From: Myxococcaceae bacterium
GTDB taxonomy: Bacteria > Myxococcota > Myxococcia > Myxococcales > Myxococcaceae
Direction: 5' to 3'
Assembly: GCA_003818285.1 (NCBI GenBank)
Contig: RPRB01000015.1
Span: forward strand, 1 to 52,772
Length of the DNA: 52,772 nt
The position numbers were made by a program, and so were the translations under genes. Positions 2 through 15,688 of this stretch are shown here, in pieces; the stretch's first letter is position 1, and each line of letters starts with the position of its first letter. Below the pieces are notes generated by a model, which ran no database searches, was not told the origin of the DNA, and saw only the letters and a list, made by a program, of their open reading frames with translations.

Positions 2-798
2 GCCACCGGTCAGGTCGCGGCCGCCCGGGCAGCCGCGGAGAAGGCCCGGCTCGATTTCGAGCGAGCCCAGCGCCTCTTCGCTACCCAGAGCATCACCCGC
101 CCGGAGATGGAGAACGCGACCGCCCAGCGCGACGGCAGCAGAGCGCAGCTCGCCGCGGTCCAGGCCCTTCTGGCCGAAGCGCAGGTGGGGCTCCGGGACA
201 CCGCGCTGACCGTCCCCGTGGACGGCGACGTGATGAAGAAGAGCGTCGAGCCGGGTGCGTACACCGGCCCGGGATTGCCGGCCTTCGTCATCGGCGACGT
301 CAGCAGCGTCAAGGTCGTGCTCGGCCTGCCCGACATCGCCCTTCACGGGGTCCAGCTGGGACAGGACGTGGTCGTCACCACGGATGCCCTCCCGGGCAAG
401 AGCTTCGCGGCCAAGGTGAGCCGGATTGCCGCCGTCGCTGATTCCGTCACACGCAACTTCGACGTGGAGGTGGAGATCCCCAACCCCGACCGCCTCTGGA
501 AGCCCGGGATGATCGCGGGGGTGGAGCTGAAGTCCGGAGGAGGCCACGCCCCCATCCCCCTGCTCCCGCTCACCGCCTTCGTTCCCAGCGTCAAGAACAA
601 GGAGCAGTTCGCGGTGATGGTCATCGACGGCGCGGGCACGAACACCCGGGCCAGGATCCGGGACGTCGTGCTCGGGGACGTGGTGGGCAACCGCGTGGCG
701 GTCACCCAGGGCCTGAACCGCGAGGAGCAGGTCATCACCACCGGCGCGACCATGGTCATCGACGGTGAGCGCGTCGAGGTCGTGCCCCAGGAGCAGCC

Positions 799-802
<4 letters not shown>
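2..802 (+). CDS. RND efflux periplasmic adaptor (HlyD/MFP family), 5' end missing
   Basis: Periplasmic adaptor that links an inner-membrane RND pump to an outer-membrane channel. The open frame runs in from the window edge. An ATG at 107 exists but lies inside a coiled-coil hairpin (A/E/R-rich, with ERAQRLF then ITRPEMENA), so the true start is upstream and outside the window. After the hairpin come the second half of the lipoyl-like domain (LTVPVDGDVMKKSVEPGAY), a beta-barrel domain and a membrane-proximal domain ending near EVVPQEQP. The stop overlaps the ATG of the pump gene (ATGA), so the two are almost certainly co-transcribed and translationally coupled. Substrate unknown. Family assignment is confident. 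Confidence 0.9.
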
Positions 803-4425
<3,623 letters not shown>

Positions 4426-5593: not shown

Positions 5594-5623
5594 CGTGTGT
5601 CTTGTCCCGGAGGTCATCTGGCG

Positions 5624-6457
5624 ATGAAAGTTCCCCCGTCCGCCCGGCATTTGACCCTCGGCAGCGCCTACCGCCGCCTCCTCTCGGCACCCCCGGGGGT
5701 CGTGCTGGCGGTGATCGCCGGGCTGTTCCTGGCGGTGAACCTGGTCTTTGCCGTGCTGTACCTGACCGTGGGCGGGATCGCGCACGCCCGACCGGGCTCG
5801 TTTGCCGACGCCTTCTTCTTCAGCGTGCAGACGCTGGCCACCATCGGCTACGGCGAGATGCATCCGGTGTCGCTGGTCGCGAATCTGATCGTGACCATCG
5901 AGGCGCTGCTGGGGCCCATATTGACCGTCATGGGCACAGGGCTGGTCTTCGCGCGGGCCTCGGCGGTCCATCCCCGCGTGGCGTTCGCCCGGGTGGCAGT
6001 GGTGACCCCGCTGGAGGGGGTGCCCACCCTCATGGTCCGGGTCAGGAGCGAGCAATGGAGCTCCATCGCCGGGGCCCTGGTCCGTCTGACCCTGATCCGG
6101 ACGGAGCGCGACGCCGAGGGCCAGACGCTCCACCGGATGCGCGACCTGGCGTTGACCCGCGAACTCTCGCCGCTCTCCGCGGGCGAACTGACGATGATTC
6201 ACAGCATAAATGCTTCCAGCCCCCTGCACGGTGCCACCCCTGGTTCCCTCCGGGCCAGCGGAGCGGAGCTCTTCGCCACGGTGGTGGGCATCGATGGCCC
6301 CACCGGGCAGCTCGTCCAGGCGGGCCATCGGTACACTACCCATGACATCCTCTTCGGCCGGCGCTTCGTGAGCCGGGTCACGGAACTGCCCGGGCCGAGG
6401 ATGCGCCTCGACCTCCAGGGCTTCGATGAGGTCGGGCCGGACTCGGCCCGCTCCTGA
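5624..6457 (+). CDS. Inward-rectifier potassium channel (KirBac family)
   Basis: A 277-residue two-TM potassium channel. An outer helix (about 25-50) is followed by a pore helix, the selectivity filter TIGYGEM (73-79), an inner helix (about 82-110), and a long cytoplasmic immunoglobulin-like domain beginning SAVHPRVAFARVAVV, typical of Kir channels. A GTG at 5597 is in frame, but ATG 5624 is preferred: GGAGG lies 10 bases upstream and the predicted promoter at 5556-5584 places transcription start near 5591. The gene stands alone between two copies of the same operator, so channel expression is probably tied to the TetR regulon. The physiological role (potassium or membrane-potential response) is inferred. 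Confidence 0.9.
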   Translation: MKVPPSARHLTLGSAYRRLLSAPPGVVLAVIAGLFLAVNLVFAVLYLTVGGIAHARPGSFADAFFFSVQTLATIGYGEMHPVSLVANLIVTIEALLGPILTVMGTGLVFARASAVHPRVAFARVAVVTPLEGVPTLMVRVRSEQWSSIAGALVRLTLIRTERDAEGQTLHRMRDLALTRELSPLSAGELTMIHSINASSPLHGATPGSLRASGAELFATVVGIDGPTGQLVQAGHRYTTHDILFGRRFVSRVTELPGPRMRLDLQGFDEVGPDSARS

Positions 6458-6678: not shown

Positions 6679-7296
6679 ATGTCGCCCCGCTTCCAGAGAC
6701 CCTCCACCGCTGCTCCGGAGCTCCCGCTCATCGAGCGCCTTCGCGCCGGCGATCGCGCTGCACAGACCGAGCTGGTCCGGCGCTACCAGGGGCGGCTGCT
6801 CCGGCAAGCGTTCGAGATCTTGCACGACCGCGGGCTCGCCGAGGACGCGGTCCAGGACACCTGGCTGGTGGCCCTCACCCGCTTGGACCGGTTCGAGGGC
6901 CGGGCGAGTCTCCTGACCTGGCTCACGGGGATCGTCATCAATCGAGCACGAGACTGCCGACGGAAGGAGTCCCGCGTCCGCCCACTCTCCAGCCTCCCCC
7001 AGCACCCGAGCGCGCCGGACCTGCCGACAACGCCATCCGCGAGCCAGCCCTTCCCGGAGCCCGTGACCGAGGCGACCGCGGAACGCGTGGTGCTCGCCCG
7101 GGAGCAGAGCTGCGCGCTGAACGCCGCGGTGCGGGCGCTTCCTGCCACGCAACGGTCCGTCGTTCTTCTCGAGCTGGGTGGCTACAGCGCCGCGGAGACG
7201 AGAGAGACCTTGAAGATCACCGATCTCGCCCGGCGGGTCCGTCTCTCGCGAGCGCGATCCCGGCTCCGCACCGAACTCGTCAGGTCCGCTGCCTGA
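6679..7296 (+). CDS. ECF-type RNA polymerase sigma factor
   Basis: A 205-residue alternative sigma factor. Sigma region 2 covers about residues 17-100: ERLRAGDRAAQTELVRRY, then the -10 recognition helix with LAEDAVQDTWLVAL and WLTGIVINRARD. A Pro/Ser-rich linker follows, then region 4 (about 130-200) with ALPATQRSVVLLELGGYS and the DNA-contacting RRVRLSRARSRLRTEL. The region 4 turn reads KITDLARRVRL where most ECF factors have a G..TVKSRL-like sequence. AAGGAGA lies just upstream of the ATG. No anti-sigma gene is adjacent; the next gene is the transporter 17 bases away, so control may come from the operator at site 2 or from the downstream gene products. Confidence 0.88.
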   Translation: MSPRFQRPSTAAPELPLIERLRAGDRAAQTELVRRYQGRLLRQAFEILHDRGLAEDAVQDTWLVALTRLDRFEGRASLLTWLTGIVINRARDCRRKESRVRPLSSLPQHPSAPDLPTTPSASQPFPEPVTEATAERVVLAREQSCALNAAVRALPATQRSVVLLELGGYSAAETRETLKITDLARRVRLSRARSRLRTELVRSAA

Positions 7297-7313
7297 GGGG
7301 TCCGCAGGCCTCC

Positions 7314-9989
7314 ATGTCTGGCAACGATCGCCTCCCCGCGCCGGTCCAGCCCCGGGTCGAGCCGGCAACCACCAGCGGTATCGCCCTCCGGCGGACCTTG
7401 CCGTTCGCCGCGCTCCTCCTCTTGCTGGCCGCTGCCCACACACTGCTGGAGACCGCGCGCGACGGCCTCTTCCTGACCCAGCAACCGATCAGCCACCTTC
7501 CGTTCGTCTTCCTCGCAGTGACCGCCACGGTGCTGGCGCTCACCCCGCTCCAGCGCCTCCTGTGGTCCACCGGGCACCGCGGTGCGCTTCCCATCACGCT
7601 CCTCGGCACGGGGATCGTCACGCTGATCTTCTGGCTGGTGACGGGTCAACGGGGCGCCGTCGTGGCCTTCTACGTCTGGACCGCCCTCTTCTCCTCACTG
7701 GTCTTCGTCCAGTTCTGGCTCACCGCGGACGAGGCCTTTGCGCTGGGTGACGCCAAGCGGACCTTCGGGTTCATCGCGGCCGGCGGACTGCTCGGCACGG
7801 TGGCCGGAAGCGCAGGCGCTCGGCTCCTCCTCCAGACCTCCTCGCCCGTCCTGCTGCTCCCCGCGTCCGCCGGCGTCACGTTCGCGGCGATGCTCCTCGC
7901 GGTCGTGGCCGTACCGAAGGTCGGCACGGGCTCCCCGACCGAACCCGGGGCCGTCATCAACAGGGCGGTCCCCGTGGCGCTCCGGGAGGATTCCTATCTC
8001 CGGCTGCTGGCAGGGCTCACGCTGCTGACCGCCGCGAGCGCCACGCTGCTCGACTACCTGTTCAAGGCCACAATCGTGGCCGGCAGCGCGCCGGCTCGCA
8101 TCCCGCAGCTGATCGCGAACGTCCAGCTGGGTCAGAGCCTCCTGGCGCTCGTCGCGGAGCTCGTCCTGGTGCGCGTCCTGCTCCGACGAGCGGGCGTCAC
8201 CCGTAGCCTGGCAGTGCTCCCCGCCCTGGTGCTCGCCGGTACTGCCGGGTTCGCGCTGGTCGGAAGCATGGCGCTCCTCTTCCTCCTCAAGATGCTGGAC
8301 GGCGGCGTCCGCCCGTCCATCCACCGGGTCGGCACCGAGCTGCTGTACATCCCGGTGGCCACCGCGGAACGGCGGCTCATCAAGCCGTCGATCGATGTCG
8401 TCGGGCAACGAGGGGGACAGGCGGCCGCGTCCGTCGTCCTCCTCGTGACCGGCTGGGTTCCAGCGACAGCCAAGCTGCATATCGTCACCACGCTGCTCGC
8501 GACCGTCGCGCTCCTCTGGGTCCTGGCCTCACGCGCGCTCCGCTCCCGATACCTGGCCCGTTTCCAGGCGCAGCTCCGAGCGGGACGGCTGGAGTCCCCC
8601 GTTCCGGGCCAGCTCGACGTGGCCTCGGCGGAGATCCTGGTGGCCGCGCTCGGCTCGACACGAACGGTCGAGGTGCTCACGTCTCTCGAGCTGCTGTCAC
8701 GGGTCGGACGGGCCGACCTCGTACCGACGCTCGTGCTGAACCACCCCGAGCCTTCGGTGGTTCTCGCTGCGCTGCGTGTGCTCGCTCCGGTCCGGCGACC
8801 GGACGCCGAGGCGATGCTCCTGCGGCTGCTACGACATCCCGCTCCGGAGGTTCGCGCCGCGGTTGCCGAATGCTGGACCCGGGCCCGCCGGCCTGCGCTC
8901 GAGCTCGCCGCGCTCCTCGACGATCCGGAGCCGGGGGTCCGAGCGGCGGCTCTGGTCGCGCTCGCGGGAGAGCACCGCTTCTTCCGCGGAACGCTCGTCT
9001 TCATCGCCCGCAGGGGCGAGCTCGAGGAGCGCCGCGCGCTTGCCCGGGCCATCGCCTGCGCCCCCCGACCGGATCTGTTCCGGGTTGCGCTCAGGATGTT
9101 CCAGTCCGGAGACACGGAGATCCGGCAGGAGTTGCTGCGGGCGGCCGACGCCTTCACCGGCCTGCCCGCGAGGTTCGTGTCGCGGACGGTGGGACTGCTC
9201 GTCGATCCCACCCTCCGGCCGGGAGCGCGGAGGGCACTGCGGGCGATGGGGACGCCGGCCCGCGAGCTGCTGGAGACGCTGCTGCTCGGAGAGCGGACAC
9301 CGTTCTCGCTGGCCCGCGAGCTTCCCGCGGCGCTCGCCGAGTTCCCACCAGCGGAGGCGGCGCCCGCACTCCTCGGCCGGATCGCGCAGCCGCGGGGCGG
9401 GCTCGACCGGTTCCGGTCGCTGCGTGCCCTCAACCAGCTGAGACACGCGCACCCGCACCTCTCGCTGGACGCGGAGTGTCTCGCCCGGGCGCTGGAGATC
9501 GAGCTCGCTGCGGCCCGCCGGGACCGCGCCCTCCGCCTCACCGGGGAGCGCCTCGGGATTGCCCGGGATGGAAACCCCGCCGGTGGACTGCTGCTCGACC
9601 TGCTCCAGGACAAGGAGTCCCGCGCGCTGGAGCGGGTGTTTCGCACGCTCGACCTCCTCTTCCCGGGTCGCCGGCTGGAACAGGCGTTCCACGCCACCCG
9701 GTCCGGCAGTCCTGCGCGGCGCGAGGCCGCCCGGGAGGTGCTCCTCGAGCTGCTCCCGGGGCGCTGGCGCGACCGGGTGATGGAAGCCCTGCGTTCCCCG
9801 CACGCGGTCCCGGTGGACACGAGGTCGCTGCTCGGTTCCCGCTCGACCCCCGCGGGTTTCCTGCCGGCCCTCCTGCAGCAGCGGAGCGAGACGGTCCAGC
9901 TGCTCGCCGGCCGGCTGGCCCGGGACCGTGGGTGGCTCCACGACGCTCCCGGGCTCGGCCACCAGCTCCTCTCGCCGGTGAGGCCGTGA
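7314..9989 (+). CDS. Npt1/Npt2-like (ATP/ADP translocase-type) membrane protein fused to HEAT repeats
   Basis: An 891-residue protein in two parts. Residues about 25-410 form some 10-12 hydrophobic segments, with the early motif LLETARDGLFL seen in bacterial relatives of the nucleotide transporter (Npt/NTT) branch of the major facilitator fold. Residues about 430-880 are a soluble series of helical HEAT-like repeats (for example LLRHPAPEVRAAVAECW, LLDDPEPGVRAAALVAL). Classical Npt proteins exchange ATP for ADP in intracellular parasites. In free-living bacteria the substrate is unknown, and the HEAT tail suggests a regulatory or scaffolding role. It lies 17 bases after the sigma gene and abuts the CNB gene. 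Confidence 0.8.
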   Translation: MSGNDRLPAPVQPRVEPATTSGIALRRTLPFAALLLLLAAAHTLLETARDGLFLTQQPISHLPFVFLAVTATVLALTPLQRLLWSTGHRGALPITLLGTGIVTLIFWLVTGQRGAVVAFYVWTALFSSLVFVQFWLTADEAFALGDAKRTFGFIAAGGLLGTVAGSAGARLLLQTSSPVLLLPASAGVTFAAMLLAVVAVPKVGTGSPTEPGAVINRAVPVALREDSYLRLLAGLTLLTAASATLLDYLFKATIVAGSAPARIPQLIANVQLGQSLLALVAELVLVRVLLRRAGVTRSLAVLPALVLAGTAGFALVGSMALLFLLKMLDGGVRPSIHRVGTELLYIPVATAERRLIKPSIDVVGQRGGQAAASVVLLVTGWVPATAKLHIVTTLLATVALLWVLASRALRSRYLARFQAQLRAGRLESPVPGQLDVASAEILVAALGSTRTVEVLTSLELLSRVGRADLVPTLVLNHPEPSVVLAALRVLAPVRRPDAEAMLLRLLRHPAPEVRAAVAECWTRARRPALELAALLDDPEPGVRAAALVALAGEHRFFRGTLVFIARRGELEERRALARAIACAPRPDLFRVALRMFQSGDTEIRQELLRAADAFTGLPARFVSRTVGLLVDPTLRPGARRALRAMGTPARELLETLLLGERTPFSLARELPAALAEFPPAEAAPALLGRIAQPRGGLDRFRSLRALNQLRHAHPHLSLDAECLARALEIELAAARRDRALRLTGERLGIARDGNPAGGLLLDLLQDKESRALERVFRTLDLLFPGRRLEQAFHATRSGSPARREAAREVLLELLPGRWRDRVMEALRSPHAVPVDTRSLLGSRSTPAGFLPALLQQRSETVQLLAGRLARDRGWLHDAPGLGHQLLSPVRP

Positions 9990-10919
9990 ATGATTGACGC
10001 GAACCACTCCGAAGCGACGGGTCACCTGCTCGCGTTGACCCAGCTGGCGCCTTTCCAGATCTTGCCCGCCGCCGAGCTCACCCTGCTCGCGCTCGCCGGG
10101 CGGGAGCAAGTCGTCCCCAGGCGGACAGTCCTGGTCGAGGCCGGCGCGTTGCCGGGCGCGCTCTACGTCCCGCTCCGTGGGCAGCTCGAGCTATCGACGC
10201 TTGGCCCGCAGAGACCCCCGGACTGGAACCCGGCGCGCCTCGGCGGACTCGCCCTGCTGGGCCAGTCGGAACTGGCCGGGGACCTCGTCGCGCCTGCCGG
10301 AGCCGAGCTGCTGGTGGTGGACCGGGACGCGCTGCTCACCCTCCTCGAGGAGCACGGGCAGCTCTGCCGGCATCTCCTTCGCGCGCTCGCCCTGCAGCTC
10401 CGGACCGTCCGGCCGATCGGCGGGCCCACCTTCCGCGCCCTCCCGGGCCCGGCCCCGGAGAGCACCGATCTCGTCTCCAGGATGCTCGTCTTCCGGAAGC
10501 TACTCGGTCCCGGTGGAGGCGGGATGGCTGCGGTCGCGCGGCTGGCTCGGGTGGCCCGGGACCTGCGCCTGGCGACCGGAATGGTGCTGGAGCCCTCGAG
10601 CAGGAGCGCAGACCTCCTGGTCATCACCCACGGCTCGCTCCGGCTGCTGCCGGTGGAAGGCTCGACCCGGCTGGCCCGAGCCGGAGAGGTCGTCGGTCTC
10701 CCCCAGGCGGTGGCCGGGTTGCCGCTCCTGCTCCGCGCCATCGCGACCACCCCGGTCTCGGCACTGGTCATCTCCGGGCCGGAGCTGGCCGCGGCCATCG
10801 AGGACGAGGACCTGCTCTGTCTCGATCTCATCCGTGGTTTCGCCGCCGAGCTCCTGGCCGAGAGCACCGCCCAGTTCTCCGAGCGCGCAACACCCGAGCA
10901 CGTCGAAAGGACGAATTGA
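9990..10919 (+). CDS. Cyclic-nucleotide-binding-domain protein without DNA-binding domain
   Basis: A 309-residue cytosolic protein starting immediately after the transporter stop. Residues about 20-135 fit the cAMP-binding roll: a helix (LAPFQILPAAELTLLAL), strands with VPRRTVLVEAGALPGALYVPLRGQLELS, then a GQSELAGDLVAPAGAELLVVDRDALLTLL segment equivalent to the core and C-helix. The phosphate-binding cassette is not canonical. A second beta-rich half (about 190-300) with TGMVLEPSSRSADLLVITHGSLRLL looks like a second, degenerate cyclic-nucleotide-binding fold. No helix-turn-helix is visible, so this is not a Crp-type transcription factor. It may regulate the adjoining transporter. Ligand unknown. 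Confidence 0.72.
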   Translation: MIDANHSEATGHLLALTQLAPFQILPAAELTLLALAGREQVVPRRTVLVEAGALPGALYVPLRGQLELSTLGPQRPPDWNPARLGGLALLGQSELAGDLVAPAGAELLVVDRDALLTLLEEHGQLCRHLLRALALQLRTVRPIGGPTFRALPGPAPESTDLVSRMLVFRKLLGPGGGGMAAVARLARVARDLRLATGMVLEPSSRSADLLVITHGSLRLLPVEGSTRLARAGEVVGLPQAVAGLPLLLRAIATTPVSALVISGPELAAAIEDEDLLCLDLIRGFAAELLAESTAQFSERATPEHVERTN

Positions 10920-12340
10920 TGCTCTCCCCCAGCGACACCGGATCTCGAACCCATCGCAAGACAGTCGAGCTCAACCTCGATCCCAGGACCTACGGGACCT
11001 TCGCCGAGATCGGCGCTGGCCAGGAGGTCGCGCGCTGGTTCTTCCAGGTGGGCGGTGCCTCCCGCACGGTCGCGAAGTCGATCTCCGCCTACGACATGGC
11101 GGTGAGCGACTGGCACTACGGCTCCACGCGGCGCTACGTCGGCCGGCAGCGTCTCGAGGCGATGCTCGATCGCGAGTTCCAGCAGCTCGTCGAGAGCCTC
11201 GGCTCCATCCGGGGCGATCGAAGCACCTTCTTCGCCTTCGCAGACACGGTCGCCACCCGGAAGCGAGAGGGCGACCAGCACGGACGCGGCTGGGTCGGAC
11301 TGCGCTTCCAGGCCGAGCCACGCCAGCCACCCTCCTCCCTCATCCTGCACGTGCACCTGCTCGATCGCGATCCGGTCCAGCAGCAGGAGGCGCTGGGAGT
11401 CCTGGGAGTCAATCTCCTCCATGCCGCCTTCTTCGGGCGGGAGGATCTGTCCCGGGCACTCGAGTCACTGCTCGATGATCTCTCGCGCGAGCGGGTCGAG
11501 ATCGACGTGTTGAAGGTCTCCGGCCCGGCCTTCGTCGGGGTGGACAACCGGATCGTCAGCCTTCAGCTGGTCGAGCGGCGGCTGACCGATGCGGCCATGT
11601 TCACCGCAAGCGGCGACGTCGTGCAGCCCTCGGAGGTGCTGTACCGGAAGCCGATCCTGGTCGAGCGCGGCAGCTTTCGGCCGGCCACGAGACTGACGCT
11701 GGATCTCCTCGAGCGGGCAAGAGAACGCTTCGTCCTCGAGCCGGAGGTCAGCGGCGTGGAGCCGGTCGTCGTCGCCGAGATGACACTGCACAACCTGCGG
11801 CAGCCGGACCAGGATCTCGCCGGGCCGGCGGACTTCCTGGCCCGTGCGGAGATCCTGCACGCGCTCGGTTTCGACGTGCTCGTCTCGCGCTTCGGGCCCT
11901 TCTACCAGCTGGCGGACTACCTCTCGGCCTACACCGACCAGCTGATCGGAATCGCCCTGGGCGTGGACACGCTGAACGATCTCTTCGACGAGCAGTTCAG
12001 CAAGAAGCTCGACGGTGGCGCTCTGGAGTCCGTGGGCCGGCTCTTCAAGCGCTCGGTCAAGGTCTACGTCTACCCGACCCTCGACACGGCGACCGGAAGA
12101 CTGATCACCGTCCTCGACCCGGCACCGACGAAGCCTGCCGAGTACCTGCGGCAATTCGTGCTCGGCTTCGATCACCTGAGGGCGCTCGAGCCGTCCGACC
12201 CGGCGCTTCTGTCCATCCGGGCCGCGGACGTGCTGAAGCGTATCCAGGCCCGGGATCCCGGGTGGATGTCCATGGTGCCCCCGAGCGTCGCGGAACGCAT
12301 CCAGGCGAAGCAGTTGTTCGCCCCGACCGCCGCGGCATGA
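10919..12340 (+). CDS. Conserved protein of unknown function (ELNLDPRTYGTFAEIGAG family)
   Basis: A 473-residue soluble protein. The ATG at 10919 overlaps the previous stop; a TTG three bases earlier is less likely. The N-terminal stretch NLDPRTYGTFAEIGAGQEVA followed by RWFFQVGGASRTVAKSISAYD is very similar to what I recall of a widespread family (notably in Bacteroidetes) that databases sometimes label nicotinate-nucleotide adenylyltransferase or TonB-dependent receptor. I see neither a nucleotidyltransferase HxGH motif nor a signal peptide or plug, so those names look wrong. The second half is alpha/beta and includes ARAEILHALGFDVLVSRFGPFYQL. It closes the transporter-CNB operon, so a shared task is likely. 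Confidence 0.7.
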   Translation: MLSPSDTGSRTHRKTVELNLDPRTYGTFAEIGAGQEVARWFFQVGGASRTVAKSISAYDMAVSDWHYGSTRRYVGRQRLEAMLDREFQQLVESLGSIRGDRSTFFAFADTVATRKREGDQHGRGWVGLRFQAEPRQPPSSLILHVHLLDRDPVQQQEALGVLGVNLLHAAFFGREDLSRALESLLDDLSRERVEIDVLKVSGPAFVGVDNRIVSLQLVERRLTDAAMFTASGDVVQPSEVLYRKPILVERGSFRPATRLTLDLLERARERFVLEPEVSGVEPVVVAEMTLHNLRQPDQDLAGPADFLARAEILHALGFDVLVSRFGPFYQLADYLSAYTDQLIGIALGVDTLNDLFDEQFSKKLDGGALESVGRLFKRSVKVYVYPTLDTATGRLITVLDPAPTKPAEYLRQFVLGFDHLRALEPSDPALLSIRAADVLKRIQARDPGWMSMVPPSVAERIQAKQLFAPTAAA

Positions 12341-12519
12341 AACGAGCCCCGGCCCGGCGCAGGGCGGAGCGGTGAGCCCCCGCCCCCGAGGAGGTGCCGA
12401 CACACGACACACCCCGAGCGTGCTGACGAGGCTGTGTCGGGCAGCCCGGTTCGGCCGCGGAACCCCCTGTCGAGGCACCCTTGGAGTGGCACACGGCGTG
12501 CTCAGACGGGCGGGTGCCC

Positions 12520-13309: not shown

Positions 13310-14248
13310 ATGACCTCTTCCGTCGACGCCGGTCTCGCAGCCGTCGTGCACCGCTTCGGCCCGCCCGAGGTCATCCAGATCGAGCTTGTGGGTACGCCAC
13401 CCCCGGGCTCCGGCCAGGTGCGCCTCCGGGTCCAGGCGGCCGGCGTGGGATCCTGGGATGCGCAGGTCCGCTCCGGAAAGGGCCCGACCGCGCTGTCGCT
13501 TCCGCTGGTGCTCGGGGGCGACCTCGCCGGCGTGGTCGAGTCGGTGGGGCCGGGTGTCGCCGCGGTGGGAGTCGGAGACGTGGTCTTCGGGGTCACCAAC
13601 CCGCAGCTCACCGGGGCGTGCGCCGAGCTTGCCCTCGCCGATGCGGCAAGGATCTGTGTCCGGCCCACCATGCTCACCTCCATCGAAGCGGCGGCGGTGC
13701 CGGTCGTCGCCTGCACGGCGCTCCAGATGGTCGAGCTCGCCGGCATCTCGGCAGGGATGCGGATACTCGTGCTCGGCGCGGGTGGGAATGTCGGTCAGTG
13801 GACGACGCGGCTCGCCCTGCGACGAGACGCCGAGGTGGTCGCGGTGGTGCAGGAGCCCGAGGTGGGCGGGGCGCGTCTGCTCGGAGCACGCCGGATGCTG
13901 ACCGCTCTTCCGGCGCGGGCTCCGCTGTTCGACGTGGTGCTCGACACGGTGGGAGGCCTGATGGCCGGGTCGTCGCTCCGTCTGCTCCGACCGGGAGGGC
14001 GGCTGGTCTCCTCGGTGCAAGGCATCGAACCGACATCCTTCGGGCGCCACGACGTGTCGGCAAGCTGGCTCCGGGTGGACGTCACCTCGGATCGCCTGCG
14101 CGTTCTGTCCGGCTGGATCGATGGGGGTGGATTTCCGGTGCCACTCGGGGAAGTGCTGCCACTCCGGGACGCAATTCTTGCGCACCGGAAGGTGGAGGGA
14201 CTGGAGCCGAAGGCCCCAGGGCTTCTCGTCCTCCGGGTCTCCGACTGA
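13310..14248 (+). CDS. Zinc-independent medium-chain dehydrogenase / quinone-oxidoreductase-like protein
   Basis: A 312-residue member of the MDR superfamily, quinone reductase branch. The GroES-like N-terminal half carries GSGQVRLRVQAAGVGSWDAQVR and LVLGGDLAGVVESVGPGV. The Rossmann half carries LVLGAGGNVGQWTTRLA, the NAD(P)H-binding glycine motif. The Cys/His ligands of the catalytic zinc in alcohol dehydrogenases are absent, as expected for this branch. It probably catalyses NADPH-dependent reduction of a quinone or enone; substrate unknown. The downstream neighbour on the same strand is the FHA activator, 27 bases away, so the two may share a transcript, although 14299-14304 reads TATAAT. 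Confidence 0.85.
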   Translation: MTSSVDAGLAAVVHRFGPPEVIQIELVGTPPPGSGQVRLRVQAAGVGSWDAQVRSGKGPTALSLPLVLGGDLAGVVESVGPGVAAVGVGDVVFGVTNPQLTGACAELALADAARICVRPTMLTSIEAAAVPVVACTALQMVELAGISAGMRILVLGAGGNVGQWTTRLALRRDAEVVAVVQEPEVGGARLLGARRMLTALPARAPLFDVVLDTVGGLMAGSSLRLLRPGGRLVSSVQGIEPTSFGRHDVSASWLRVDVTSDRLRVLSGWIDGGGFPVPLGEVLPLRDAILAHRKVEGLEPKAPGLLVLRVSD

Positions 14249-14275: not shown

Positions 14276-15688
14276 GTGTCGACCGTACGTGCGTCCGATA
14301 TAATTGCCGCCGTGGCTCGCAAGGGCGAAACTCTGTCCCAGGTCGAGACCCCATCCCGGGAGGTCGCGCGAGGGCCGCACCTCTTCCTGGAAGTCGAGTG
14401 CGAGCGTGCCCTGGCCGGCCCTGCACTCTGGCGGCTGGCGGGGATCGAGCAGGTCACCATCGGACGAGGCACCCGGCGCAGCACACGCGCGGTCTCTTCC
14501 CAGGTGCTCGCGGTGGAGATTCCGGACGGCTGGATGTCCTCGGAGCAGGTGGTGCTTCGCCGCTCAGAGGGACGGTGGACCCTCCGCGACTTGGGCTCGA
14601 AGAACGGAACGCTCGTCGATGGCCGGCGGGTGGAGCAGGCCGAGCTCGACGACGGTGCGCTCCTCCAGCTGGGACACACGTTCCTGCGCTTCCGCGAGGA
14701 CGTTCCGAACGACGGACCGGCAGTTCGCAATTTCGACGGCGCCGAGGGGAGCATCGGCCGACTGACGACGTTCTCGCCCGTGTTCGGCCTGGTCCTGGAG
14801 CGCGCCACCAGGGTCGCCACCGGCCGGGTGCCAGTGCTGATCGTGGGGGAGAGCGGAACCGGCAAGGAGGTGCTCGCCCGCGCCATCCACGGGCTCTCCG
14901 GCCGCCATGGCCCACTGGTGGCGGTCAACTGCGGCGGGATCCCGCCCACCCTGGTGGAGGGCGAGCTCTTCGGGCACAAGAAGGGCGCCTTCTCCGGCGC
15001 GGACCAGGACCGCCTGGGGCTCGTGCGGGCCTCGGATGGAGGCACCCTCTTCCTGGACGAGATCGGAGACCTCCCGCCCGCGGCACAGGCGGCGCTGCTC
15101 CGGGTGCTCCAGGAATCGGAGGTGCTGCCGATCGGCGGCCATCGCCCGCAGGCGCTCGACCTCCGCGTCCTCGCCGCCACCCATCGCGATCTCGACCGGC
15201 TGGTGCGAGAGGACAAGTTCCGTCACGACCTCCTGGCCCGGCTGGAGGGGGTCACGCTCGAGCTGCCGCCGCTGCGGGACCGGCAGGAGGACCTGGGGCT
15301 CCTCATCTCCCTGCTGCTGCGCAAGCTCGCTCCCGAGCGACCGGACGTACGGCTCACGCCGGCGGCAGCGCAGGCGCTCCTCAGCTATCGCTGGCCACTC
15401 AACATCCGGGAGCTGGAGCAGGCGCTGTCCGGAGCCCTGGCCCTCAGCGGAGCCGGAGCGATCGACCTCGCTCACCTTCCCGTGGACGTGGTCGGCCGGG
15501 CCGGCGAGGAGCCATCTCGGGAACTGACGCCGGACGAGTCCCGCCACCGCGACGAGCTGGTCGCGCTCCTGCGCGAGCACGGCGGGAACATGGCCGCCGT
15601 GGCCCGTGTGCTCGGCAAGGGCAGAACGCAGATTGTGCGCTGGGTCACCCGCTACGGCATCGACCTCCGGTCCCTCGGCTCGGGGTGA
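14276..15688 (+). CDS. FHA-domain sigma-54-dependent transcriptional activator
   Basis: A 470-residue enhancer-binding protein. Residues about 35-145 form a forkhead-associated phosphothreonine-binding domain (IGRGTRRSTRA, SEQVVLRRSEGRWTLRDLGSKNGTLV). Residues about 165-400 are the AAA+ domain: Walker A GESGTGKE, sigma-54 loop GAFSGA (a variant of GAFTGA), Walker B GTLFLDEIGDL, and an Arg-finger region FRHDLLARL. A C-terminal Fis-like helix-turn-helix (GGNMAAVARVLGKGRTQIVRWV) follows. GTG 14276 is the longest start; GTG 14312, just after a TATAAT at 14299-14304, is an alternative. It is transcribed toward the four kinases, and FHA domains bind phosphothreonine, so it is a strong candidate output partner. 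Confidence 0.92.
   Translation: MSTVRASDIIAAVARKGETLSQVETPSREVARGPHLFLEVECERALAGPALWRLAGIEQVTIGRGTRRSTRAVSSQVLAVEIPDGWMSSEQVVLRRSEGRWTLRDLGSKNGTLVDGRRVEQAELDDGALLQLGHTFLRFREDVPNDGPAVRNFDGAEGSIGRLTTFSPVFGLVLERATRVATGRVPVLIVGESGTGKEVLARAIHGLSGRHGPLVAVNCGGIPPTLVEGELFGHKKGAFSGADQDRLGLVRASDGGTLFLDEIGDLPPAAQAALLRVLQESEVLPIGGHRPQALDLRVLAATHRDLDRLVREDKFRHDLLARLEGVTLELPPLRDRQEDLGLLISLLLRKLAPERPDVRLTPAAAQALLSYRWPLNIRELEQALSGALALSGAGAIDLAHLPVDVVGRAGEEPSRELTPDESRHRDELVALLREHGGNMAAVARVLGKGRTQIVRWVTRYGIDLRSLGSG

Follow-up and report, generated by a model that had tools for sequence, protein, structure and literature searches.

The last gene of the four-gene locus described here, found in a window of 52,772 nucleotides (the whole stretch of DNA that was analyzed), most likely encodes a member of an unrecognized family of pyridine-nucleotide-type binding proteins, either a pseudoenzyme or one with a new chemistry, as judged from its predicted structure. 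High-confidence models predict that this protein, the product of gene 4, combines a PncC/HcgF-like domain with a NadD/NMNAT-like domain, the folds of two consecutive enzymes in NAD recycling. Together, genes 2 and 3 represent the NTT-HEAT/cNBD family, a pairing already on record in Major et al. 2017 (PMC5381601); the new part is gene 4. For the locus as a whole, we favor, with some reserve, a combination of the described pair, acting as a carrier for something other than ATP, with a separate gene 4 family that is coupled to it here only.

Table 1. Genes of the locus and predicted domains of the gene 4 product (window positions)
Feature	Coordinates	Strand	Length and remarks	Basis
Gene 1, putative ECF-type sigma factor	6679..7296	+	205 aa	ORF; Pfam/NCBIfam
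Gene 2, NTT-HEAT protein	7314..9989	+	891 aa	ORF; Pfam TLC/HEAT
Gene 3, tandem CNB-fold protein	9990..10919	+	309 aa	ORF; Pfam cNMP_binding
Gene 4, CinA/PncC-like and NadD/NMNAT-like	10919..12340	+	473 aa counted from ATG; catalytic residues altered in both parts	
Gene 4 residues 7-178, predicted CinA C-domain (PncC) fold	10937..11452	+		Predicted model vs PDB
Gene 4 residues 243-470, predicted NadD/NMNAT fold	11645..12328	+		Predicted model vs PDB

All four ORFs lie in phase on the plus strand and show coding-type GC by codon position (0.84 to 0.88 at the third position). Their spacing is 17 nt between genes 1 and 2, 0 nt between genes 2 and 3, and −1 nt (an overlap) between genes 3 and 4, just as an earlier note on this DNA had described: gaps of 17 bases or less, with two junctions abutting or overlapping. 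The last junction reads TTGATG and offers two possible starts for gene 4, TTG at 10916 and ATG at 10919, of which the ATG, sharing one base with the TGA of gene 3, is likelier. No sigma-70-type promoter or terminator was detected between positions 6300 and 12700, which says little for a genome of this type, and no RNA elements or tRNAs were found.

The product of gene 4 had been called an unknown protein. This holds for family membership, as gene 4 has no match in Pfam or NCBIfam and only chance matches to solved structures by sequence, but it does not hold for the predicted model, in which two folds are recognizable. The AlphaFold2 model reached a pLDDT of 89.7, one of two confident models obtained (89.7 and 90.9), from an alignment that drew on 36 of the 84 gene 4 sequences compiled. 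The compilation consists of 78 of 80 related loci recovered by a motif rule, L019 and L064 added by coordinates, and the window, L017, L014, and L098; an additional short ORF in L031 was left out. The modeled N-terminal domain matched the CinA structures 6l19, 5v01, 5vu3, and 2a9s with Z scores of 15.5 to 15.6, followed by HcgF (3wvc) at 9.9 to 10.0 and the next match at 6.5. The modeled C-terminal domain matched 1nup (Z 16.8, 3.3 Å over 199 residues) and 2h29 (Z 16.3, 2.7 Å over 175 residues). With hhalign, the N-domain aligned to 30 CinA domains at a nonsignificant E value of 0.43, with AEIGAGQ paired to AESCTGG, and the assignment of a CinA fold rests on predicted structure because sequence support for it is nil. 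The C-terminal stretch aligned to NadD at an E value of 3.9e-4 and a probability of 36% (the NadD set omitted the partial match L195 as well as L205 and L206). The CinA model of Pfam (PF02464) did not match gene 4 and was absent from the seven families listed for 38 members at E values up to 1.

Catalytic residues are altered in both domains. The AtCinA study (PMC5384747) gives Ser31 and Lys63 as catalytic; at the positions located through the hhalign N-domain alignment, gene 4 carries Ile31 and Ser63 and retains Tyr58. Among the members listed, Ser31 and Lys63 each occur in 0/84, and Tyr58 in 84/84. Gene 4 thus shares with the CinA C-domain/PncC NMN deamidase (2A9S, 4CT8) the predicted fold and the tyrosine but differs in the Ser/Lys dyad and in escaping the Pfam model. 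HcgF, an archaeal protein of the [Fe]-hydrogenase cofactor pathway, is a weaker match than CinA; its structure, bound to guanylylpyridinol, combines a fold like that of the N-domain with a pyridine-type nucleotide ligand.

NadD/NMNAT enzymes are marked by the motifs (H/T)xGH and SSTxxR, and these strict patterns are present in 16 and 19, respectively, of 24 canonical NadD proteins of the host phylum. The C-terminal domain of gene 4 shares its predicted fold with 1nup, 2h29, and 1yum and resembles NadD/NMNAT in a GSFxP loop and a W..VP..VA..I C terminus, but among the members listed HxGH (apart from one stray His) and SSTxxR are each found in 0/84. A PncC-type domain joined to another pyridine-nucleotide domain is likewise seen in the COG1058-PncC fusion of Thermus thermophilus CinA (PMC4246079); there, the partner is an N-terminal, active pyrophosphatase, whereas in gene 4 it is C-terminal, NadD-like, and motif-less. 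No paper on a PncC-NadD-type fusion was found in a search of the open-access literature.

We then considered whether gene 4 belongs with the transporter genes. The earlier note had proposed a module of three families, and gene 4 could be a working part of it: NTT-HEAT would import NMN or NAD, gene 4 would handle or sense the pyridine nucleotide, and the ECF sigma factor would exert control. The genes abut, with TGATG coupling; coupled genes usually have a functional link; and both predicted gene 4 folds belong to enzymes of the NMN-to-NaMN-to-NaAD route. According to Major et al. (PMC5381601), moreover, PamNTT4, a transporter outside the main NTT clade, carries NAD. The neighborhoods of gene 4 relatives (flanks up to 8 kb, less at contig ends) contradict this idea. 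In tblastn searches at 1e-4, NTT-HEAT or cNBD was near gene 4 in 0 of the 80 loci listed, and with iterated profiles, NTT was found in 0/80 and cNBD in 1/80 (L024, on the opposite strand at a distance of 2 kb). Conversely, contig C55 and 20 NTT-HEAT loci from the phylum contain no match to gene 4, and of 32 gene 4 genomes searched for an NTT domain, only 6 yielded one. The three families thus fail to co-occur, the outcome named beforehand as refuting the module, and a place for gene 4 in a conserved transporter module was rejected. Given also that gene 4 lacks the catalytic residues, a working module of this kind is unlikely. The coupling has been seen once only, and the functional link between gene 4 and the transporter may be accidental.

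Nor does gene 4 have another common neighbor: an all-against-all comparison of neighboring ORFs at the 80 loci listed returned none except gene 4 and its shadow frames, with the largest other groups present at about 10 of the 80. Pfam, run on 86 of 125 adjacent ORFs listed, showed TPR proteins, DapF, and PilM, each in at most nine members, and the 25 families displayed out of a total of 112 included no NAD-biosynthesis enzyme.

Gene 2 carries an NTT/TLC (MFS-like) membrane part (about residues 1 to 424) and a HEAT-repeat tail from about residue 475, as had been supposed; it matched Pfam TLC (7e-6, 25.5 bits, cutoff 21), HEAT_2 (4e-9, 37 bits), and HEAT (3e-7, 30.8 bits). A profile of the NTT domain matched the solved ATP/ADP translocases 9j3n ("ADP,ATP carrier protein 1"; 1.4e-36) and 9j3j (chloroplastic; 2.7e-28) over the membrane domain; relative to these canonical carriers, the HEAT tail of gene 2 is an addition. 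Gene 3 matched Pfam cNMP_binding in two stretches (2.2e-8, 34.4 bits, cutoff 27.5) and no DNA-binding (HTH) domain in Pfam, again in line with the earlier description, and the pairing of NTT-HEAT with a cNBD, linked or fused, is conserved in 19 of 21 related loci. The cNBD is fused in six of these loci, adjacent on the same strand in eight, adjacent and convergent in one, separated by two intervening genes within a same-strand cluster in four, and absent from two. Major et al. (PMC5381601) describe NTT-HEAT proteins from free-living bacteria, in which a cNBD either comes next as a protein of its own or is fused on, and assign them no function. Our locus agrees in having an NTT with a C-terminal HEAT tail, a cNBD gene directly behind it, and a host that is probably free-living, as are the bacteria in which that family is broadly found. 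It differs from the family as portrayed there in its tandem cNBD with degenerate phosphate cassettes, the ECF sigma gene before, and gene 4 after; neither flanking gene is conserved across the NTT-HEAT loci examined. Of 189 genomes of the phylum queried with NTT-HEAT, 141 gave a match, and the genome of the window carries a paralogous operon on contig C55.

The fold-level homology to solved ATP/ADP translocases and the CNB fold of gene 3 could suggest an ordinary transporter of ATP/ADP or NAD whose regulator is gated by cAMP, along the lines of the earlier note and of Major et al. The residues that define such functions are not kept. ATP/ADP-type NTT transporters reportedly carry the charged residues K155, E245, E385, and K527 (AtNTT1 numbering, attributed to Trentmann, 2000), K155 and K527 being the substrate-site lysines, and these numbers fitted the 9j3j chain exactly in an index check. 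In the alignment, their equivalents in gene 2 are Phe66, Ala124, Asp247, and Gln369, and those of K155 and K527 are Lys in 0 of 16 NTT-HEATs compared (18 rows minus two single-domain NTTs). The phosphate-binding cassette of CNB domains is marked by Glu and Arg. Both are absent at the aligned positions in the two domains of gene 3, and the Glu is absent from both domains in all seven tandem-CNB forms, gene 3 included; single-CNB relatives, by comparison, keep the Glu in 10/13 and the Arg in 12/13, a point in favor of cAMP gating. These substitutions weaken, at the level of sequence, the nucleotide transport and cyclic-nucleotide sensing that had been proposed, and an ordinary transporter with a cAMP-gated regulator now appears improbable. 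Nucleotides may be the substrate despite the loss of these residues: PamNTT4, outside the main clade, carries NAD. The earlier note had named lysine loss together with a different, proven substrate as decisive against its reading; the lysine loss is found, and a proven substrate is not. An open-access literature search found no paper giving NTT-HEAT a function.

Gene 4 has at least 84 family members in about ten bacterial phyla, one relative lying in the complete-genome record CP036526, but within the host phylum the search of 195 genomes turned it up in only 2. In a quick tree, in which the window forms a long branch, it groups with Phycisphaeraceae and Rokubacteria sequences (SH-aLRT 99) and not with the three other sequences of the phylum; gene 4 was thus probably acquired horizontally from outside the phylum. 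Plasmid and phage collections held no gene 4 relative, and viral contigs gave two matches, one of them a short fragment. The host genome carries its own canonical CinA and NadD, which rules out, for this genome, that gene 4 replaces either. A reading of gene 4 as a degenerate enzyme that lacks a specific function and has drifted since its transfer was already disfavored and is very improbable: both canonical active sites are lost and the gene is rare in the phylum, but across the 84 sequences listed, 57 of the 172 positions in the N-domain reach at least 95% identity (27 of these positions are polar) and the frame is intact across 473 codons, which indicates purifying selection rather than decay.

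In the arrangement that we favor, a described pair next to a separate family, gene 2 would be an MFS-like carrier in the membrane whose HEAT repeats form a scaffold on the cytosolic side, and the CNB-fold subunit would dock on this scaffold as a regulator; we infer the docking because NTT-HEAT-cNBD fusions exist in relatives. The tandem-CNB branch lacks the residues that define ATP/ADP exchange and cAMP binding, and the carrier is therefore expected to move some other metabolite, probably an anionic one; the CNB subunit may gate it by protein-protein contact or in response to another ligand. Gene 4 would represent a widespread, stand-alone, and unannotated bacterial family outside the transporter module. 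Its predicted pockets appear to preserve the fold and part of the contacts (Tyr58 of PncC and the GSFxP loop) with the catalytic residues swapped, and it would most likely bind NMN, NaMN, NAD, or a related ligand of the pyridine-nucleotide type, either to signal the ligand level or to perform a new reaction on it. After its transfer, gene 4 would have come under translational coupling (TGATG) with the transporter genes, which the ECF sigma factor gene precedes. A bolder version, in which the tandem PncC-like/NadD-like family is a pyridine-nucleotide receptor or new enzyme coupled here to the NTT-HEAT/CNB carrier in a membrane module that imports and reports a pyridine-nucleotide-like compound, strikes us as doubtful.

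The carrier-regulator pair is part of a large family without an assigned substrate, for which the residue survey gives reason to doubt ATP transport and separates single-CNB forms, with a mostly intact cassette, from tandem-CNB forms that have lost it. For gene 4, the model offers a putative structural identity to a family missed by Pfam and NCBIfam and narrows the candidate ligands to a small set. A highly conserved NAD-recycling double pseudoenzyme or a new pyridine-nucleotide reaction, if true, would be of real interest.

The putative ECF sigma factor has no conserved place beside NTT-HEAT, a sigma factor being near it in only 1 of 21 related loci (L144), 1.4 kb distant. Gene 1 clearly matches region 2 (Pfam Sigma70_r2, 3.1e-14) and NCBIfam TIGR02937 (8.4e-19, above the cutoff), whereas its Sigma70_r4_2 score of 23.6 bits lies beneath the 25.7 cutoff; it also matches PF07638 at 21.2 bits (cutoff 21.1).

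The earlier note had read the four genes at 6679-12340 as an operon for nucleotide sensing or transport. The run itself was borne out, since all of its members lie on the plus strand with gaps of 17, 0, and -1 bases, and GC by codon position agrees with coding status for 4/4 genes. As a single contig (C40), the window belongs to a 502-contig, 5.77-Mb genome, whose character and relatives indicate Myxococcota as its probable phylum. For the fourth gene (gene 4), an ATG start at 10919 is the better placed and is preferred, overlapping the gene 3 stop by one base; such an overlap is a usual mark of translational coupling. Gene 4 is the most interesting element of the run, and its window protein matched no Pfam or NCBIfam model. 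The features are collected in the table, together with flanking genes of the window.

Features of the window and of the related loci compared
Sequence	Feature	Position	Strand	Remark
Window (C40)	Inward-rectifier potassium channel	5597-6457	+	IRK_C 1.8e-16, Ion_trans_2 1.6e-10; just upstream of the run
Window	ECF-type sigma factor	6679-7296	+	First gene of the run
Window	NTT-HEAT protein, 891 aa	7314-9989	+	Second gene
Window	CNB-fold protein, 309 aa	9990-10919	+	Third gene
Window	Gene 4, 473 aa	10919-12340	+	Fourth gene
Window	Zinc-type alcohol dehydrogenase	13310-14248		
Window	FHA + sigma-54 activator protein	14276-15688	+	Behind the alcohol dehydrogenase
C55 (L013)	Paralogous operon	7388-12451	+	Single-domain NTT, NTT-HEAT, tandem CNB protein; PAP2 protein further downstream
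C370 (L014)	Second own-genome gene 4 copy	260-1567	-	43% identical
L098	Gene 4 relative	3001-4368		On a 58-kb contig catalogued as viral in IMG/VR, close to its end

An AlphaFold2 model of gene 4 (36 sequences; pLDDT 89.7, pTM 0.89) was compared with known structures by Foldseek and VIA-align. Residues 243-470 of the predicted model fell on NadD/NMNAT (1nup, Z 16.8, rmsd 3.3, 199 aligned; 2h29, Z 16.3, rmsd 2.7, 175 aligned), and residues 7-178 were placed on the CinA C-domain. Modelled alone, the N-terminal half reached a pLDDT of 90.9 and matched ten CinA entries at Z 13.6-15.6, followed by HcgF at 10.0 and, after a gap, the next entry at 6.5. At the sequence level, 2/38 gene 4 members gave a weak NCBIfam match to archaeal NMN adenylyltransferase (0.0073), and hhalign of the C-terminal stretch against 24 NadD sequences returned an E value of 3.9e-4 with a probability of 36%. 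PncC converts NMN to NaMN and NadD converts NaMN to NaAD. Since the product of the former is the substrate of the latter, the pair of domains looks like two successive enzymes of NAD recycling.

The active sites of both domains are altered. Among 84 gene 4 sequences, the position of the PncC nucleophile is Ile in 83 and Ser in none, and that of PncC Lys63 is Ser in 83 and Lys in none. Tyr58, described in PMC5384747 as touching the NMN phosphate, has its equivalent Tyr in 84/84. Neither the NadD HxGH pattern nor SSTxxR was found in any of the 84, a lone His at the second HxGH His position occurring once. As a control, the strict patterns were recovered in 19/30 (CinA), 16/24 (HxGH), and 19/24 (SSTxxR) canonical sequences of the phylum; several misses were small variants, e.g., HxAH and EACTGG, so the strict patterns underrate the canonical families. 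With identity of at least 95% at 57/172 positions of the N-domain and 28/228 of the C-domain, the family is not decaying. The N-domain holds 27 conserved polar positions (E30, Q35, E36, Y58, D59, S63, D64, and T110 among them), and this conservation pattern speaks more for a remodelled ligand pocket than for a dead one. Canonical CinA and NadD are present elsewhere in the genome. Gene 4 thus stands for an unrecognised family, predicted to be PncC-like/NadD-like and changed at its active sites.

A scan of genome contigs yielded at least 577 gene 4 relatives among the 596 pattern matches listed, and the best 80 were analyzed. These came from Verrucomicrobiota, Planctomycetota, Acidobacteriota, Rokubacteria, Nitrospirota, Eisenbacteria, Kapaibacteria, Elusimicrobia, Sericytochromatia, and a Myxococcales, plus one filed as Klebsiella, probably mislabelled. 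Within its own phylum gene 4 occurred only in the window's genome and one other (G086) among 195. In a quick tree, gene 4 of the window forms a long branch that groups with one Phycisphaeraceae and one Rokubacteria sequence (SH-aLRT 99), apart from the other own-phylum sequences (L017, L014, and L097). The second copy, L014, has a frame that ends before the similarity does (one TGA within the match); it sits on a small contig with a long tree branch and is possibly contamination. No conserved neighbour was found around the best 80 relatives, and NTT-HEAT stood beside 0/80. Whole-genome searches of 32 of these 80 carriers detected an NTT domain in six. In five of them the frames span 438-476 aa, which leaves no room for a HEAT tail; the remaining one, G225, gave several matches, one in a 1097-aa frame. 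The proposal that gene 4 is the third family of a conserved module therefore failed: by conservation it is no member of the NTT-HEAT/cNBD module. Cooperation with the transporter in this one genome is possible, given the coupled start, the pyridine-nucleotide theme, and the existence of NAD-carrying NTTs.

The pairing of NTT-HEAT with a CNB-fold protein does recur. The window NTT-HEAT was matched in 141/189 genomes of the phylum (E ≤ 1e-20), and 20 loci from the upper part of this match list were surveyed together with the C55 paralog of the window's own genome. The cNBD was fused at 6 of these 21 loci, adjacent on the same strand at 8, adjacent and convergent at 1, and two genes away in a same-strand cluster at 4 (19/21 in all); it was not seen at two, one of which is cut by a contig end. 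The C55 NTT-HEAT and tandem CNB proteins are 56% and 46% identical to those of the window, and that operon contains neither gene 4 nor a match to the window sigma factor. Major et al. (2017; PMC5381601) describe NTT-HEAT fusions as broad in free-living bacteria and of unknown function, with a cNBD gene in some cases immediately behind in the same operon or fused. The window pair is thus of a known, uncharacterised kind.

The note's suggestion of nucleotide transport was weakened. The membrane-domain profile matched solved ATP/ADP translocases (9j3n, 1.4e-36; 9j3j, 2.7e-28). Four charged residues of AtNTT1, K155, E245, E385, and K527, reportedly matter (Trentmann, 2000); these positions land on K, E, E, and K of chain 9j3j with a single constant offset. 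Their window equivalents are F66, A124, D247, and Q369, so that both substrate lysines are gone, as in all 16 NTT-HEATs compared. The K155 position is Tyr in 15 and Phe in the window alone, K527 is Lys in 0/16, and E385 is Asp in 16/16; at E245, eight proteins have Glu, two have Asp, and six have Ala or Gly. The substrate site of the whole fusion family therefore differs from the AtNTT1 type.

Among 13 single-CNB relatives, the phosphate-cassette Glu is kept in 10 and the Arg in 12. The seven tandem forms (L129-L133, L013, and the window's), a subclade, have lost the Glu from both domains, which sets them apart from most single-CNB and fused forms. For single-CNB forms the cAMP proposal of Major et al. 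may therefore hold, but for the window tandem it is doubtful. In the window branch of NTT-HEAT/cNBD, canonical residues for nucleotide binding are lost from the one partner as well as the other. In one family of the phylum, f11 (L136, L137, L141, L142, and L144), NTT-HEAT genes form tandem doublets. Behind each doublet lies an unknown gene and then, as judged by eye for L136, L141, and L144, a gene for an ASKHA-like 'AIDVGVxNVK' protein; a single-CNB protein comes next in 4/5 loci, the L144 contig ending before that point.
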